Of a DNA stretch of 5,759 nt, positions 1 through 5,759 are shown piece by piece. Under the pieces are notes generated by a model. The model did no database searches and was not told the origin of the DNA. It worked only from the letters and a program-made list of their open reading frames with translations. The stretch covers positions 1 to 5,759 of the forward strand of contig WJIO01000007.1 in NCBI GenBank assembly GCA_014730235.1, read 5' to 3'. Every line of letters begins with the position of its first letter. The first letter of the stretch is position 1. Source of the DNA: Candidatus Poribacteria bacterium. GTDB taxonomy: Bacteria; Poribacteria; DTPJ01; WJIO01. The translations under genes were made by a program, and so were the position numbers.

Positions 1-158
1 ATGGTAAACTGTGCGCTGTTGATATTGGCCGCAGTCTTGATAAGATTACGGGTAGCCGTTTCAAGCTCAAAGCTAGCCTGGTTAATATTTGAGATCATCT
101 GCTGAAGCTTTCTTGTTCTTTCCCGCAACTCATCCAACTGATCAGGCTCCTTCGCCAT
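1..158 (-). CDS. Partial small helical (probable coiled-coil) protein, C-terminus outside window
   Basis: The first 52 codons of a minus-strand gene that runs off the left edge. The start ATG (156-158) is set by an AAGGAGG SD at 169-175, and no stop occurs before the edge. The visible protein is hydrophilic, starts MAKEPDQLDELRERTRKLQQ, is rich in Glu, Arg, Gln and Asn with Leu/Ile spaced in a heptad-like way, and has no Cys, signal peptide or membrane segment, so a helical bundle or coiled coil is likely. It is the last visible gene of the leftward operon, 76 bases after the Cys-rich gene, and a strong hairpin lies directly before its SD. I do not recognise the family. Reality of the gene is well supported by SD and composition; function is unknown. 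Confidence 0.75.
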   Translation of the reverse strand, partial: MAKEPDQLDELRERTRKLQQMISNINQASFELETATRNLIKTAANINSAQFT

Positions 159-464: not shown

Positions 465-474
465 ATCACCTCCT
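465..474 (-). promoter_or_regulatory. Perfect Shine-Dalgarno AGGAGGTGAT overlapping upstream stop codon
   Basis: This minus-strand site is fully complementary to the usual 3' end of 16S rRNA and lies 5 bases from the ATG at 459 (9 from its GGAGG core). Its first two bases are part of the TAG stop (473-475) of the upstream gene, an arrangement typical of coupled genes within one operon. Confidence 0.9.
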
Positions 475-883
475 ATTCATCAAGAAGTAGATGACCATAG
501 TTGTCCACGATCTTCTGAATGACCTCCATGTCGAACCTGCTTGGAAGTTCCAGCCCGAACCTGTCGCAGATCATCCTGGCCCTCTCTATGTTATCCTGCA
601 ACTCCCTCAGATACGGCAGGGATTCCATCTCCACATGCCTCAGGTATTCACCAAACAGATCTCCAATAGGATCTTCCTCGACATCAGGAATATTGGGTAT
701 CTCTATCTCCCTGACAGGCTCGATAGGATATTCCCTTGGCGAAGGTTCACCGTCATACAAGGATGGGCTCTTATAAAGATCATCAATTTCATACTGTCCC
801 ATCCGCTTATCATAGTTGTCCTGCGGAAGAGATCGGTAAATCTTCAATAGATCCTCTAAGTCCTTCTGGTCATCAAAAGGCAA
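473..883 (-). CDS. Acidic 136-aa hypothetical protein (TTG start)
   Basis: A 136-aa soluble protein, strongly acidic and without Cys pairs, signal peptide or membrane segments. The N-terminal third is charged and helical. The middle (about residues 40-75) is rich in Pro, Glu and Asp and probably disordered. The C-terminal 60 residues look like two or three amphipathic helices with one Cys (C106). The start is a TTG at 881-883, chosen because AAGGAG lies exactly 7 bases upstream and no in-frame ATG gives as good a signal. It sits between the YbjN-like gene (82-base gap) and the Cys-rich gene (stop overlaps that gene's SD), so it is probably co-transcribed with both. I recognise no family. The mix of disorder and helix would suit an adaptor or scaffold, which is only a guess. 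Confidence 0.8.
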   Translation of the reverse strand: MPFDDQKDLEDLLKIYRSLPQDNYDKRMGQYEIDDLYKSPSLYDGEPSPREYPIEPVREIEIPNIPDVEEDPIGDLFGEYLRHVEMESLPYLRELQDNIERARMICDRFGLELPSRFDMEVIQKIVDNYGHLLLDE

Positions 884-965: not shown

Positions 966-1529
966 TTATTTGCTCATGGCTTTAATGATGGTCTCATCAG
1001 GTTTGTAATCAGGATTCCACCATGAGAAGCCCAAACCGTCCAGATTCATATCTACGCTTTCAAATAATTCCCTGACTGCCTTACAGCCCTCCTTTCCTTC
1101 CGTCAATATGTCCTCCATTGCCAGCTTTGTCCCCAGGACAGAATGCAGTTCGCGTTCGATGCAGACCTCTATTTCCCGGGACAATACCTTCTCCTTGGCC
1201 ATGTCCACGATAAGCCTGACGGCGACTTTCCCCGCATCAGCATCCACCAGGACCGTTGTGGCGATATAGAGAGTATTAAGACAGTTCCCTGCCTTCAGCA
1301 CGTCAGCCAGCTTATCTTCAGGAATCCCCTCCGCTACTATAAAATACAATTCAAGGGAATTGGAATGGAGATAATGGCAGGCTAACCCTTCTATCTCGAA
1401 CTCCTCGACACCCTCAATGTTTTCCACAGGCATTGTGAACTGGATGCGGAAATCATTCCTGTCCTTGTGGTATTCATATCCTGCGGAATCGAGGTATCGG
1501 ATGAGCTCCATGTCTATGTCGTTTCCCAT
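966..1529 (-). CDS. YbjN-like domain protein (187 aa), putative
   Basis: A 187-aa soluble protein, no signal peptide or membrane helices. Residues about 65-135 follow the pattern of YbjN / type III secretion chaperone-like folds: an acidic helix (EGIPEDKLADVLKAGN), an Asn followed by strands around N85-V95, a turn with a D-A-D-A-G hairpin, a strand running into R105, and a long helix after LSREIEV. The N-terminal 60 residues hold a charged strand-rich segment, and the tail ends in a Trp-Trp pair (170-171). YbjN-like proteins are small chaperone or regulatory proteins of poorly defined role. The call rests on pattern memory only. The ATG at 1529 has no good SD; M7 is an alternative start. First gene of the leftward operon, with a sigma70-like promoter directly upstream. 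Confidence 0.7.
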   Translation of the reverse strand: MGNDIDMELIRYLDSAGYEYHKDRNDFRIQFTMPVENIEGVEEFEIEGLACHYLHSNSLELYFIVAEGIPEDKLADVLKAGNCLNTLYIATTVLVDADAGKVAVRLIVDMAKEKVLSREIEVCIERELHSVLGTKLAMEDILTEGKEGCKAVRELFESVDMNLDGLGFSWWNPDYKPDETIIKAMSK

Positions 1530-1717: not shown

Positions 1718-1990
1718 ATGTCATCCACTTCTCTGATTCGAATAATTGGCGGGATTATAATACTCATAATAATTGGCGTTTATATCAGAAGGAAGAAAAA
1801 CTCAATTAAACTGTCTCAGTTGAGCTGGAAGAGCTTATTGCTGACCTTTGCTATCATCCTGGCATCATCTATTTGCTTATCTCAAATAAACTACATGCTT
1901 TTTGGGGTTGATTATTATACTCTTCTTATCAGCTTTTTATCGGTATGTCTGTCTTATACCTATCTTTTGTCACATCGAGAGAAAGATTAG
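1718..1990 (+). CDS. Three-helix membrane protein, or N-terminal part of the downstream protease
   Basis: A 90-aa hydrophobic protein with likely transmembrane helices at about residues 7-24, 39-60 and 64-85. A positive RRKK patch (24-27) after helix one suggests N-out, and HREK closes the end. The ATG has a modest SD (AAGG, 9 bases upstream). The last 46 bases overlap the protease gene, which is in the -1 frame. Two readings are possible: a separate small membrane partner translated in coupled fashion, or the first helices of a single membrane protease of about 560 aa joined by a frameshift, programmed or from mutation or sequencing error. M56/BlaR1-type proteases do carry such N-terminal helices. 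I do not recognise a family for the 90 residues alone. Confidence 0.7.
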   Translation: MSSTSLIRIIGGIIILIIIGVYIRRKKNSIKLSQLSWKSLLLTFAIILASSICLSQINYMLFGVDYYTLLISFLSVCLSYTYLLSHREKD

Positions 1991-3405
1991 GTATTCTTCG
2001 CATAGAATTCAGGGATTTGCTCGGATTATCGGGCATATTTTCATGCTGGCTAATGGTTGCCATACAATTGATTGGAAAATATTTCCTGGATTTTAAGACA
2101 TATTTATTTGCCGCAGACTATGGTTGGCTTATTTTGGTTTCGATGGGAACTTTTATTTTTATCAGAAGTTTCATAGAGTTCGGAAGGGGTTTGTTCTATC
2201 GGAACTATGAGGAAGTTGACAGTTGTATAATAAACCGCTATATATCTAAATTTGAGTCTTTGGTTGGGCAAAAGATAAAAAACCTGAGAGTCTTAAGACG
2301 TAAAGATGATAAGCTCATTGTGCCAGCAATAACAGGAACAATTTTCCGTCCCATCATGCTGCTCCCCCGAAGCATGGAAGAGGAATACATTGGTAATGAA
2401 AACATCCAGGAGAAAGCAGTCCGGAAATTTACCATATATCACGAACTCGCCCATCACTTCAACAGAAACCTTTTATTCTTATTTGTAAATGAAGTTTTCA
2501 TCATATTCTGGTCTGTCGGCTTGATTTACTTTCTGCATGCATACTTCCTGTTTGCTTCGCAATTCATCCATGACCCCATTAATGAAATAGGTAGAGACGA
2601 ATTTTTTCTTGTGTATTTGATATTTACCTGGGCGGGATATGGGTTTCTTTGGTTTTTCGAAGCGCGAAAAGTGAGCAGAATAAGGGAAATCCAGGCGGAT
2701 AATCTATCATGGAGTCTCCTAAACGAAGATGAGAAGAACGCCTTGCTTGCTTCATCATCGGACAGGACTACATACTTTGAGGCATTTCTTAATGAAATGA
2801 GACTCTCAAAAGCTGTGAATAACATATCGTTTAGTGTCTTGGGCGGCGCAGTTGGCTCTGTTATCAGACGATTGAGAAGAATTCATTATCCGTTTATTAG
2901 ACCATTAACTCGGCTAGATAATTTATTGTCGCCGCATAAATATACCCTCACAACTATTAAAAGAGCGGCATTTATTTCAGGTGCCAGCGTCGGATTGACA
3001 GTCGGATATATTACTTATTACCGTCCATACTATATGATTTTCTTCAGTTTTATTTTTATGATTGCAGGTATCTATCTGGCCACAAATATCTACAGCAATC
3101 GTTCTGAAGAGAGGAAAGTATCGATACCTCGTATTACTTTATATGTATTTGTTGGCAGTATAATGGCTGGTTTTGCATATTTTGCATTACTAATATTGAT
3201 CTTTATCCCGCTTTATATCTATAAAGAACCTAAACCAGATACATTTACTACAGTTAAGAGTATTGCTTCTGGGTTATGGGTTCTGAGGATGAAGTTTTTA
3301 CAATACCTCACGGCTTCTGGAGCAATGGGTCTTATTTGTGTGTTCGCGGCATCAACTTTTTTGGAAATGTATGATGGTATAAGCAATACATTCTTCAAAA
3401 AATAG
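1945..3405 (+). CDS. HtpX/M48-like membrane zinc metalloprotease
   Basis: A 486-aa polytopic membrane protein. HELAH (166-170) is the zinc and catalytic motif. SRIREIQAD (244-252) matches the M48 SRxRExxAD signature and supplies the third ligand E248. The 82-residue spacing between them, holding two membrane helices (about 178-202 and 219-239), is close to that of E. coli HtpX (H139 to E222). Helices precede the motif at about 28-48 and 58-78. After it, an unusual extension adds about four helices (340-358, 362-380, 397-425, 440-470); HtpX itself is about 290 aa, so the C-terminus is extra. Expected to cleave membrane proteins in the inner membrane, with the active site on the cytoplasmic side in the family. 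The ATG at 1945 lies inside the upstream gene and has no SD, so the start is uncertain. It converges on an anti-sigma-like gene, suggesting a signalling role (inference). Confidence 0.85.
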   Translation: MSVLYLSFVTSRERLGILRIEFRDLLGLSGIFSCWLMVAIQLIGKYFLDFKTYLFAADYGWLILVSMGTFIFIRSFIEFGRGLFYRNYEEVDSCIINRYISKFESLVGQKIKNLRVLRRKDDKLIVPAITGTIFRPIMLLPRSMEEEYIGNENIQEKAVRKFTIYHELAHHFNRNLLFLFVNEVFIIFWSVGLIYFLHAYFLFASQFIHDPINEIGRDEFFLVYLIFTWAGYGFLWFFEARKVSRIREIQADNLSWSLLNEDEKNALLASSSDRTTYFEAFLNEMRLSKAVNNISFSVLGGAVGSVIRRLRRIHYPFIRPLTRLDNLLSPHKYTLTTIKRAAFISGASVGLTVGYITYYRPYYMIFFSFIFMIAGIYLATNIYSNRSEERKVSIPRITLYVFVGSIMAGFAYFALLILIFIPLYIYKEPKPDTFTTVKSIASGLWVLRMKFLQYLTASGAMGLICVFAASTFLEMYDGISNTFFKK

Positions 3406-3410
3406 CATGA

Positions 3411-4043
3411 TCAAAGCAAGCGATTCCGAATATACCTTAGTGCTTTGCCCCGGATTCTCAGTGGAACTATTTTAAGGCACGCCCGTGATATATTGTTAAA
3501 ATCTTTCCTGGAATTGAGCAACTCAGGTGATTGGTTAATCCTGTCACAAAAAGCCAGATACGCTAATAGTAATTTTTCCGCTGGTGAAATATTACTTTCA
3601 GTGAGGGCTAAGCTGAACGTTGGTAACAGCGATATATTCCTATTTTTCCCCTTGTCCCATAGTTCCTCCCGAGTATCTGTATAAAGTTTCTTAATTATGC
3701 TCCATCCAGAATTGATCTCTTCAAGCCCCGTAGAATCATTCTCAAGGAAATCCTCTGTAAGCATTTTACCAACATCCATCCATTCCCCATGTTCTATCAA
3801 TCTTCTATTCATTGCGGGAGCCGTGCGTTTTACAGGTTCTGGTTTTGCCAGCAGCTCTTCTAATTTATCTGGATTTACGGCTTTCATCGCTCCTTGGCAA
3901 AGTTCACACTTACGGATATGCTCCTCAATACCAGGTTTCATTTGGTCCAACAAATCATCTCTGCAATATCGCTTTATCAGTTCTGTTGGTATACACAGTA
4001 TAGAGGCAGACAAATTAATCTGAGATTTACTTTCCTTAGCCAT
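3411..4043 (-). CDS. Zinc-binding (ZAS-type) anti-sigma-like protein, soluble
   Basis: A 210-aa protein whose N-terminal part fits the zinc anti-sigma fold (zf-HC2/ZAS). C17, H42, C46 and C49 form C-x24-H-x3-C-x2-C, the spacing of the ChrR site (H6, H31, C35, C38) and within one residue of RsrA. A helix with DDLLDQMKPGIEEH lies between, as in the family. C27 is an additional Cys. No transmembrane helix is seen, so it should be cytoplasmic, like RsrA/ChrR. Residues 60-130 look like a linker with helices, and 140-210 form a basic helical domain I do not recognise. Its ATG shares one base with the TAA of the sigma-like gene (TAATG), with GAGGTGG upstream: tight coupling, as expected for a stoichiometric partner. 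It should bind and hold the 4043-5032 product; loss of zinc, oxidation or proteolysis could release it (inference). Confidence 0.75.
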   Translation of the reverse strand: MAKESKSQINLSASILCIPTELIKRYCRDDLLDQMKPGIEEHIRKCELCQGAMKAVNPDKLEELLAKPEPVKRTAPAMNRRLIEHGEWMDVGKMLTEDFLENDSTGLEEINSGWSIIKKLYTDTREELWDKGKNRNISLLPTFSLALTESNISPAEKLLLAYLAFCDRINQSPELLNSRKDFNNISRACLKIVPLRIRGKALRYIRNRLL

Positions 4044-5032
4044 TATTCCACCTCTTCCTCATTTTCATAAATTTCCAGATAATCAACCATATCCACTTTT
4101 TCCCAATTTTCCTTTACATACTGCTTAAATCCATTATAGGCTTTGTTACGCTCTGCTCTCAAGCGTTTTATACCTTCCTCTATCTCAATATCTTTCCAGT
4201 CATCATATGTATTTTTGAAACGGATAACATATTCTTTATCGCTTAGCTTAACAATACCCTCTACTCTCTCAATTTTGGTATGAAAACCTAAAAACTCATC
4301 TCCCTCAAGCTGCTCCTCATATTCTTCAGCAAATCTATAGAATTCAAGCCGTCTTAAAGTCATGTCAATAATATGGCCATTTTCGGCCCTATTTTTTTGG
4401 ACTCTATCCGATATAGGGACTTGTTCGATATTCTTTACCCATACCCACCTGGATGTATCCTTTTCATTCTTATTTTTATCCGAATCGTTGAATTCTGGAT
4501 TTGGAATTTTTCTATATCCCTTGCTTTCAAGGAAGCTATTAAAACCTGTCTGGATCTTGTAATTTAGGAATGTGGCGAAAGAATGATTTCCATCGTAATC
4601 AAGAAGCGCGTATTTTCTTGTGTAGATATAGGTAATTACCTCGCCAACGGCTTCCTCAAGCTCATCTTTATTATCAAGTTCTGGGAAACGGGATAATTGC
4701 TCTCTTATGCGCTTTTCAATATATTCATAGTATCTCTTATATATTAAAAATCGAATATGGAATCCATCATAAATAAAGACATCATTTAAAAATCTTTCAA
4801 GGGGCATTCCTTCTTCATATTCATTTAGTCTTCTAGCTTCTTCAAATATGTAGTCTTTAACAGTATTTACTGCTTCCTGAAAAATCTCTTCGGTATCTAA
4901 TTCCCAAAACTTGTATAGATACTGTGTCACCATTCGTTCAATGTAGGCTGAATAGTTTCTGAATATATATGTCAGGGAAATTTCTTCTTTTTTCTGTTCA
5001 TCCATATTTTGCACATCCGAATTTGCTATCAT
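4043..5032 (-). CDS. Sigma-factor-like protein with tandemly duplicated region-2-like domain
   Basis: A 329-aa soluble, acidic protein. Residues 30-101 and 104-174 align without gaps at an offset of 74. They share YIE(R/K), xxFxELD, EAVxxVxxYI and FLN, with about one third identity over the first 57 positions. Each copy resembles sigma70 region 2: LDTEEIFQEAV is like the DAEDLVQEVF helix, followed by a loop and an F-L (WL-like) helix. Ordinary ECF sigmas are about 170-200 aa with one region 2 and a region-4 HTH. Here residues 175-280 are unrecognised, and only a weak region-4-like helix pair (about 282-308) is seen. The ZAS partner immediately downstream supports the sigma assignment. A strong promoter with a palindromic -10 precedes it. 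The start at 5032 has AGGA directly abutting the ATG; M10 (5005) is an alternative. It could instead be a structural relative without sigma activity. Confidence 0.7.
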   Translation of the reverse strand: MIANSDVQNMDEQKKEEISLTYIFRNYSAYIERMVTQYLYKFWELDTEEIFQEAVNTVKDYIFEEARRLNEYEEGMPLERFLNDVFIYDGFHIRFLIYKRYYEYIEKRIREQLSRFPELDNKDELEEAVGEVITYIYTRKYALLDYDGNHSFATFLNYKIQTGFNSFLESKGYRKIPNPEFNDSDKNKNEKDTSRWVWVKNIEQVPISDRVQKNRAENGHIIDMTLRRLEFYRFAEEYEEQLEGDEFLGFHTKIERVEGIVKLSDKEYVIRFKNTYDDWKDIEIEEGIKRLRAERNKAYNGFKQYVKENWEKVDMVDYLEIYENEEEVE

Positions 5033-5058
5033 TCCTGTAGAATCTTTATGCTATTCTT

Positions 5059-5074
5059 TATACTCCGTAGTATA
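5059..5074. repeat. Palindrome over the -10 of the sigma-like gene, possible operator
   Basis: TATACT (5059-5064) and AGTATA (5069-5074) are exact inverted repeats with a 4-base spacer. On the minus strand the -10 hexamer TATACT coincides with one arm, and the other arm falls near the transcription start. Because of the symmetry, a TATACT -10 also faces the plus-strand genes, but there it has no good -35. Confidence 0.5.
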
Positions 5075-5097
5075 GGAATTACGACGGTAAAAGTCAA
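5069..5097 (-). promoter_or_regulatory. Strong sigma70-type promoter for the sigma / anti-sigma-like operon
   Basis: On the minus strand, -35 TTGACT (5092-5097) and -10 TATACT (5069-5074) are separated by exactly 17 bases, 5 of 6 matches each. Transcription would start near 5062, about 30 bases before the ATG at 5032. The housekeeping polymerase should read it; autoregulation through the overlapping palindrome is plausible. No clear promoter for the plus-strand genes was found in 5075-5121. Confidence 0.75.
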
Positions 5098-5120
5098 CGG
5101 CAAAATTCGCGATATTAAAA

Positions 5121-5166
5121 CGAACCCGACCCAAAATCCATTGAGACCGGGTTCGGTCCTTGGAGG
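5121..5166 (+). promoter_or_regulatory. SD-adjacent hairpin element A (conserved with element B)
   Basis: CGAACCCG (5121-5128) pairs perfectly with CGGGTTCG (5148-5155), 8 bp, closing a 19-base loop. The SD core GGAGG (5162-5166) follows 6 bases later, and the ATG is at 5174. Element B before the next gene shares GACCC, ATTGAG and TTCGGYC then GGAGG in the same order. The CCC/GGG part of the stem is replaced there by TTT/AAA, so pairing is kept while sequence changes. No T-run follows, so it is not a terminator. Best read as a structured 5' UTR controlling translation or stability. Confidence 0.7.
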
Positions 5167-5173
5167 AAAAAAC

Positions 5174-5374
5174 ATGGCAACCATATTACCAACTTTCAAA
5201 GGCTACACCGTAGATACCAGACTGCACCAGTTCAGGAAAGTCAATCCTGACACCAGCATAGAATTCATTGACTTTGGCTCTGAAGAAGGAGACAAACTTC
5301 TCTGCGAATATATAGACACTCTAGACAAGAACTCAGAAGAGTTCAACAGGATAGCATCATACTTTCTTTCCTAA
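5174..5374 (+). CDS. Small 66-aa hypothetical protein
   Basis: A complete 66-aa soluble protein, beginning MATILPTFKGYTVDTRLHQF and ending EEFNRIASYFLS. It has one Cys (C44), no membrane segment and no metal motif. A strand-like N-terminus, an acidic turn (FGSEEGD, 34-40) and a C-terminal helix suggest a compact alpha/beta fold. The start at 5174 is chosen over upstream in-frame starts because TTGGAGG lies directly before it; the upstream in-frame stretch overlaps the divergent promoter and is not credible coding. It is followed by hairpin element B and the next gene, so the two are likely co-transcribed. The family is not recognised. Codon composition is GC-richer than the central block and like the left flank. 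Confidence 0.8.
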   Translation: MATILPTFKGYTVDTRLHQFRKVNPDTSIEFIDFGSEEGDKLLCEYIDTLDKNSEEFNRIASYFLS

Positions 5375-5381
5375 GAAATGA

Positions 5382-5427
5382 GCCCAATTTGACCCATAAT
5401 GATTGAGGTCAAATTCGGCCTCGGAGG
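5382..5427 (+). promoter_or_regulatory. SD-adjacent hairpin element B (conserved with element A)
   Basis: AATTTGACC (5386-5394) pairs perfectly with GGTCAAATT (5407-5415), 9 bp, with a 12-base loop. After a C-C mismatch, GCC (5382-5384) and GGC (5417-5419) add three pairs. GGAGG at 5423-5427 follows, then ATG at 5437. It occupies most of the 62-base gap between the two right-flank genes. Shared bases with element A and compensated stem changes indicate a common origin and selection on structure. Confidence 0.75.
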
Positions 5428-5436
5428 TAAGAAAAA

Positions 5437-5759
5437 ATGGTGAAAGAGAATTTAGGAGAGATGAAGTTCGAGAGGGCTTTGGTTGATGATGACTCATACA
5501 TGGGCCAGATCAGGGAGATCTCTGAAGTATACGCGACAACGAACTACACAGGAAAGGACGTTGAAAAGATAAGGCTGGACATAGAGATAGAAATGGAAAA
5601 TAAGGAGAAAGCGACTCTTCCATTGTTCATGACTGCGACCATCAGCGACGCAGGGGAGAACAACAGCAAATACCGAAACTCAAGGCTCTACGACCTTCTC
5701 GTCCGGTCAGAACAGCTGGATAATTACATGAAGATGAGAGACACCATATTCAAGGAAGG
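5437..5759 (+). CDS. Partial hypothetical protein, possibly nucleic-acid-binding (C-terminus outside window)
   Basis: 107 codons are visible and the gene continues past the right edge. The ATG is set by GGAGG at 5423-5427. It starts MVKENLGEMKFERALVDDDS. Residues about 20-65 look like an alternating strand region (IREISEVYATTNYTG, IRLDIEIEME, LPLFMTATIS) that could be an OB-like beta-barrel. It is followed by a NSKYRNSRLYDLL segment (76-88) and a charged helix. Similar strand-then-SKLRKLL layouts occur in phage and plasmid single-strand-binding-like proteins, but I am reasoning from pattern only. There is no Cys and no membrane segment. If it binds nucleic acid, it could regulate its own mRNA through hairpin B. 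Confidence 0.8.
   Translation, partial: MVKENLGEMKFERALVDDDSYMGQIREISEVYATTNYTGKDVEKIRLDIEIEMENKEKATLPLFMTATISDAGENNSKYRNSRLYDLLVRSEQLDNYMKMRDTIFKE

Follow-up and report, generated by a model that had tools for sequence, protein, structure and literature searches.

Two related stem-loops before the Shine-Dalgarno sites of consecutive orphan genes in a Candidatus Poribacteria genome

Introduction

In phages T4, RB69 and RB49 the gene 43 operator is a hairpin located 5′ of the ribosome-binding site. Its loop bases matter for binding, and among relatives the loop and upper stem are kept while the remaining stem varies (PMC3014915). Two stem-loops, here called elements A and B, were found in a contig of a Candidatus Poribacteria bacterium. 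This contig, analysed whole, is referred to below as the window (5,759 bp). By analogy with the T4-type operator, A and B may be viewed as short hairpins just 5′ of a ribosome-binding site, with a conserved loop and a variable stem. The T4-type operator, however, is a 16-18-nt element that carries a UAAC-type loop and regulates the DNA polymerase, whereas A and B are 40 nt long, have loops of 12-13 nt and occur as two copies in one operon. The genes that follow them, ORF1 and ORF2, were rejected as gene 43 or gene 32 homologues since neither matched a Pfam or NCBIfam family above cut-off or a named PHROG. The parallel with the gene 43 operator is one of analogy and not of membership.

Leader hairpins of the ompA type, which stabilise the 5′ end of the mRNA, also have their stem-loop on the 5′ side of the Shine-Dalgarno sequence, as A and B do. 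Unlike A and B, they function without a conserved loop and are not repeated, with the same loop blocks kept, in front of adjacent genes. Tandem small riboswitches are similar to the pair in being compact, structured leader RNAs in which unpaired bases are conserved. However, A and B had no Rfam match and did not recur in other genomes, and their genes do not appear to be metabolic.

Integron attC sites possess RYYYAAC and GTTRRRY core sites and are about 55 nt long or more. A and B are like them in having variable complementary arms and in lying in direct orientation around a small ORF. The cores differ, with GCCCAAT and ATTCGGC in B and AACGAAC and GTTCGGT in A, and both elements are only about 40 nt long. 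The best match to the integron-integrase profile in the host genome scored 92.6 bits against a cut-off of 265, and ordinary tyrosine recombinases also matched this profile in all 14 control genomes. An integron cassette was therefore ruled out by core sites, length and integrase search.

Sequence and structure of the hairpin pair

Aligned directly, A and B were identical in 25 of 40 columns with one 1-nt gap. The blocks that a sequence-only reading of this DNA had reported as common to both were recovered in the same order, as GACCCA-AAT, ATTGAG, TTCGG-Y-C and GGAGG. On the plus strand the two copies could be folded into 13 nested pairs, of which five were invariant, four were compensated on both sides and four were broken in one copy. 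Three of the compensated pairs (columns 7-33, 8-32 and 9-31, C-G in A and U-A in B) are exactly the triplet described earlier as CCC/GGG in A and TTT/AAA in B. We add a fourth, between columns 1 and 39 (A-U to G-C). Shifting the partner by one column reduced the paired cells from 85% to 46%. The stem of A, with 8 clean pairs, was shorter than that of B. The predicted folds had energies of -17.2 kcal/mol for A (z -2.1) and -18.3 kcal/mol for B (z -3.3).

Both hairpins end a few bases 5′ of a GGAGG (Table 1), followed by an ATG at 5174 for ORF1 and at 5437 for ORF2, which agrees with the earlier placement of the pair just 5′ of the Shine-Dalgarno sites of consecutive genes. Directly 3′ of element A, a possible 4-bp mini-hairpin (UCCU-UGG-AGGA) that includes the GGAGG of ORF1 was predicted. 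We rejected a Shine-Dalgarno-sequestering mini-hairpin as a switch common to both genes, since its prediction depended on the folded length and was unstable in a longer context. Sequestration of the Shine-Dalgarno sequence was inconsistent across the predicted folds.

Table 1. Coordinates of the hairpins and associated features in the window.
Feature	Position	Strand	Basis
Third hairpin, GCATCTCCGGTC-ATTTATC-GGCCGGGGATGT, 12 bp	166-195	minus	folding
Divergent intergenic stretch 5′ of element A	5032..5121		consensus promoter scan
Element A hairpin, arms CGAACCCG/CGGGTTCG (5121-5128, 5148-5155), loop ACCCAAAATCCATTGAGAC	5119..5158	plus	folding, alignment
GGAGG Shine-Dalgarno of ORF1	5162..5166	plus	sequence
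ORF1, 66 aa, orphan	5174..5374	plus	ORF, profile and similarity searches
Element B hairpin, arms GCCCAATTTGACC/GGTCAAATTCGGC, 12/13 pairs, one C.C mismatch, loop CATAATGATTGA	5382..5420	plus	folding, alignment
GGAGG Shine-Dalgarno of ORF2	5423..5427	plus	sequence
ORF2, at least 107 aa, orphan, runs off contig end	5437..5757	plus	ORF, profile and similarity searches

The strength of the folds was compared with a reference sample of 177 Shine-Dalgarno starts, drawn from some 0.69 Mb of the host genome. In only about 1% of these did the 45 nt upstream fold as strongly as in A (-15.0) or B (-17.1). Strong hairpins 5′ of Shine-Dalgarno sites were therefore rejected as a general habit of this genome, as about 1% of the sampled starts matched the pair in strength. 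A likeness of 25/40 in register, with one shift allowed, was reached by 58 of 15,576 random leader pairs from the same genome and by 10 of 5,000 shuffled pairs, so that the likeness of A to B, taken alone, has a p of about 0.002-0.004. Four or more compensated pairs arose by chance in 3.9% of trials when the differing columns were fixed and their letters randomised, and in 0.03% when the columns were random too. Taken together, likeness, strength and compensation form good but not overwhelming evidence, because the pair was chosen after the fact.

Search for further copies

A covariance model was built from A and B only. In the host genome it detected these two elements (54.7 and 52.3 bits) and nothing else up to E=10. 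Among 97 genomes of relatives, comprising one from the host's order but another family and others sharing only the phylum, the best other match scored 28.3 bits, lacked the conserved loop and did not precede a start codon. The match in the same-order genome was rejected because it sits within a dehydrogenase-like reading frame, and the next match among the relatives because it lies behind a gene end and lacks the conserved loop. In 291 genomes of an unrelated phylum the model gave chance matches of up to 31 bits, which were ordinary palindromes, and the 21-28-bit matches in relatives are therefore background.

Exact-pattern scans of IMG/VR returned 55 and 73 stretches, which were coding or chance matches with the stem never rightly placed before a start. 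A pattern scan across 84,980 species genomes yielded a single match, located in a coding sequence of a Lachnospiraceae MAG. No Rfam family matched near 5119-5427 even at E<=5, in agreement with the earlier statement that no named family is known to have this pattern. The further homologues 5′ of genes that would be expected of a recurrent motif were thus found neither in the host genome nor in the 97 relatives, IMG/VR or the species genomes. This counts against the expectation of the sequence-only reading with limited force, because the host belongs to an isolated lineage and relatives are lacking for the flanking genes too, which makes the lack of a third copy weak evidence. The functional RNA motif proposed there holds insofar as two related stem-loops with compensated changes are present; a recurrent family was unsupported and action on the mRNA strand was not established.

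Interpretation of the hairpin pair

We tentatively favour, as a possibility just short of an even chance, that A and B have diverged from a single cis-acting leader hairpin and that this hairpin acts on translation or mRNA stability, for example as an operator. Under this proposal, a single transcript would carry the two consecutive orphan genes, each with one copy on its 5′ side. The hairpin would be made as RNA and would act beside the start of translation at the ribosome-binding site; a small translational operator bound by a protein is the likeliest form. A single factor, which may itself be encoded in the operon, might repress or coordinate both genes, recognising the loop and hinge sequence (GACCCA, ATTGAG and TTCGG) while the variable lower stem would serve as a scaffold. 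The common layout, the retained unpaired blocks, the compensated stem and the presence of both hairpins among the strongest 1-2% of leaders favour the operator. Against it stand the restriction to two copies, the better pairing of the antisense strand, a fixed-column compensation p of only 0.039, the lack of a repressor-like protein in the window and the inconsistent sequestration in the predicted folds. None of the proteins of the window was found to resemble a known RNA-binding repressor.

From the two copies, a shared regulatory role is plausible and it is reasonable to regard the hairpins as functional RNA; two sequences are too few to demonstrate a mechanism or a new RNA family. Sequence alone does not separate translational control from protein binding or 5′-end protection. 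A stronger version, in which a lineage-specific RNA element is used at least twice in one operon and its GACCCA/ATTGAG/TTCGG core binds a protein or ligand to control translation of the two orphan proteins, appears unlikely. If confirmed, the operator would be an unnamed cis-regulatory RNA hairpin controlling two orphan genes in a lineage of bacteria that has been sparsely sampled. Translation-tuning leader hairpins as such are well known, and the novelty would lie in this particular motif and the partner that binds it.

The main rival, which we consider rather unlikely, is that A and B are generic stabilising hairpins at 5′ ends or between cistrons. Such hairpins would protect the mRNA or keep the ribosome-binding site open with no specific ligand or protein, and their likeness would derive from a duplicated leader. 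A third strong hairpin, of unrelated sequence, occupies the same position before the minus-strand gene 158..3, 4-5 bases 5′ of its Shine-Dalgarno sequence (AAGGAGG). It resembles A and B in position but not in sequence, and its predicted fold is much stronger on the sense strand (-15.8 kcal/mol) than on the antisense strand (-7.0). Moreover, Shine-Dalgarno starts of the contig were enriched for strong adjoining hairpins (3/8, against 13/289 in the genome sample; p about 0.006). The third hairpin and this enrichment favour a role at the mRNA level beside the ribosome-binding sites of this gene neighbourhood and keep the stabiliser alive, but a stabiliser leaves unexplained why the unpaired GACCCA and ATTGAG were kept better than the stem. 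Chance or plain local duplication, by which unrelated or recently duplicated stem-loops would have incidental structure only, is distinctly improbable. The pair was picked from one window and the single tests each gave p of only 0.002-0.04; however, these tests are largely independent and point in the same direction, and hairpin strength, Shine-Dalgarno register and loop identity coincide.

A and B are each an imperfect palindrome and can therefore fold on either strand. On the reverse strand 24 of 26 pair cells are kept (12/13 pairs per copy) against 22 of 26 on the plus strand. The difference comes from two A.C mismatches of A that turn into G.U on the reverse strand, whose energies of -20.6 and -20.2 are slightly better. 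As the opposite strand pairs better, compensation does not single out the mRNA strand as the selected one, and plus-strand action is argued from the placement 5′ of two Shine-Dalgarno sites. A further reading is that leftward transcripts form the hairpins, for example as bidirectional insulators or terminators that keep antisense transcription out of the divergent gene 5032..4046. The U tract that directly follows the GC-rich stem of an intrinsic terminator was absent on the plus strand; next to the minus-strand hairpins lie UUUUAAUA after A and only UCAUUUCUU after B. A terminator scan listed neither element, but it allowed loops of no more than 8 nt, too few for either hairpin to be detected. 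This antisense action is quite unlikely: the U tracts are short, no minus-strand gene lies to the right of A or B within the contig, which ends inside ORF2, and the exact position before plus-strand Shine-Dalgarno sites would then be a coincidence. An element acting at the DNA level, with single-stranded DNA hairpins or operators (recombination or cassette sites, transposon ends or repressor binding sites) flanking a 262-bp unit, is very doubtful. A and B do lie in cassette-like direct orientation around ORF1, and the host genome encodes tyrosine recombinases and another hairpin-forming repeat family. Nevertheless, the arms vary and the loops are conserved, the reverse of what a protein operator would show; the AAC/GTT triplets of the attC core are absent from B, both elements are too short for such a site, no integron integrase scored above cut-off and no other copies of A or B occur in the host genome.

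Genes and genomic setting

The predicted fold of ORF1 is beta-beta-beta-alpha-alpha (mean pLDDT 83, from a single-sequence model with no alignment), and ORF1 is probably a real protein, to judge from this model. Fold searches with it gave nothing at E<=0.001. ORF2 is truncated at the contig end, and the structure model obtained for it was too poor for use. No relatives of ORF1, ORF2, the peptidase-like protein at 1945-3405 or the minus-strand genes 5032..4046 and 1529..969 were recognisable in the collections searched. The peptidase-like protein had a weak M56/M48 match, below threshold.

The assembly comprises 5.53 Mb in 451 contigs and is 92% complete. A foreign origin of the contig was unsupported by composition, as its GC content (0.40) equals the genome median and its tetranucleotide distance is ordinary for the genome. 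No similarity to phages or plasmids was found for the contig DNA. Within the divergent intergenic stretch 5′ of element A, the consensus scan gave no promoter-like match on the plus strand. On the minus strand it gave TTGACT-17-TATACT (5097-5069), a match to the consensus only and no more than chance expects.

The host genome contains a high-copy MITE-like repeat of about 125 bp that forms a near-perfect long hairpin, with ends GGTTCTTCCGGGTTNAGTG and CACTNAACCCGGAAGAACC and inner sequence TGTCATTCCTGC...GCAGGAATGACA. There were 233 exact copies of its 19-nt end in the 5.53 Mb, and many of the sampled copies lacked one end. Copies are located at L162:1690-1815, L171:110-235 and many other loci, with none in the window. 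A second dispersed repeat, AAAGGTATTTTCTAAACACATTTTTCATTTTTTAACGATTAC, was found at L152:8609, L164:24, L179:5459 and other loci, sometimes adjoining the MITE-like repeat or upstream of genes.

Two adjoining orphan genes on the minus strand (3411-5032) resemble, by eye, an ECF-type sigma factor (5032..4046) and a Cys-containing partner (4043..3414). No family match supported this assignment for either gene. A possible leader ORF of 21-22 codons was observed on the minus strand at 890-955, with the Shine-Dalgarno sequence GAGGAGG, a TTG start and the product MATSLLDCQGHALTWTQYKEK-stop. Its stop overlaps the ribosome-binding region of gene 883..473.
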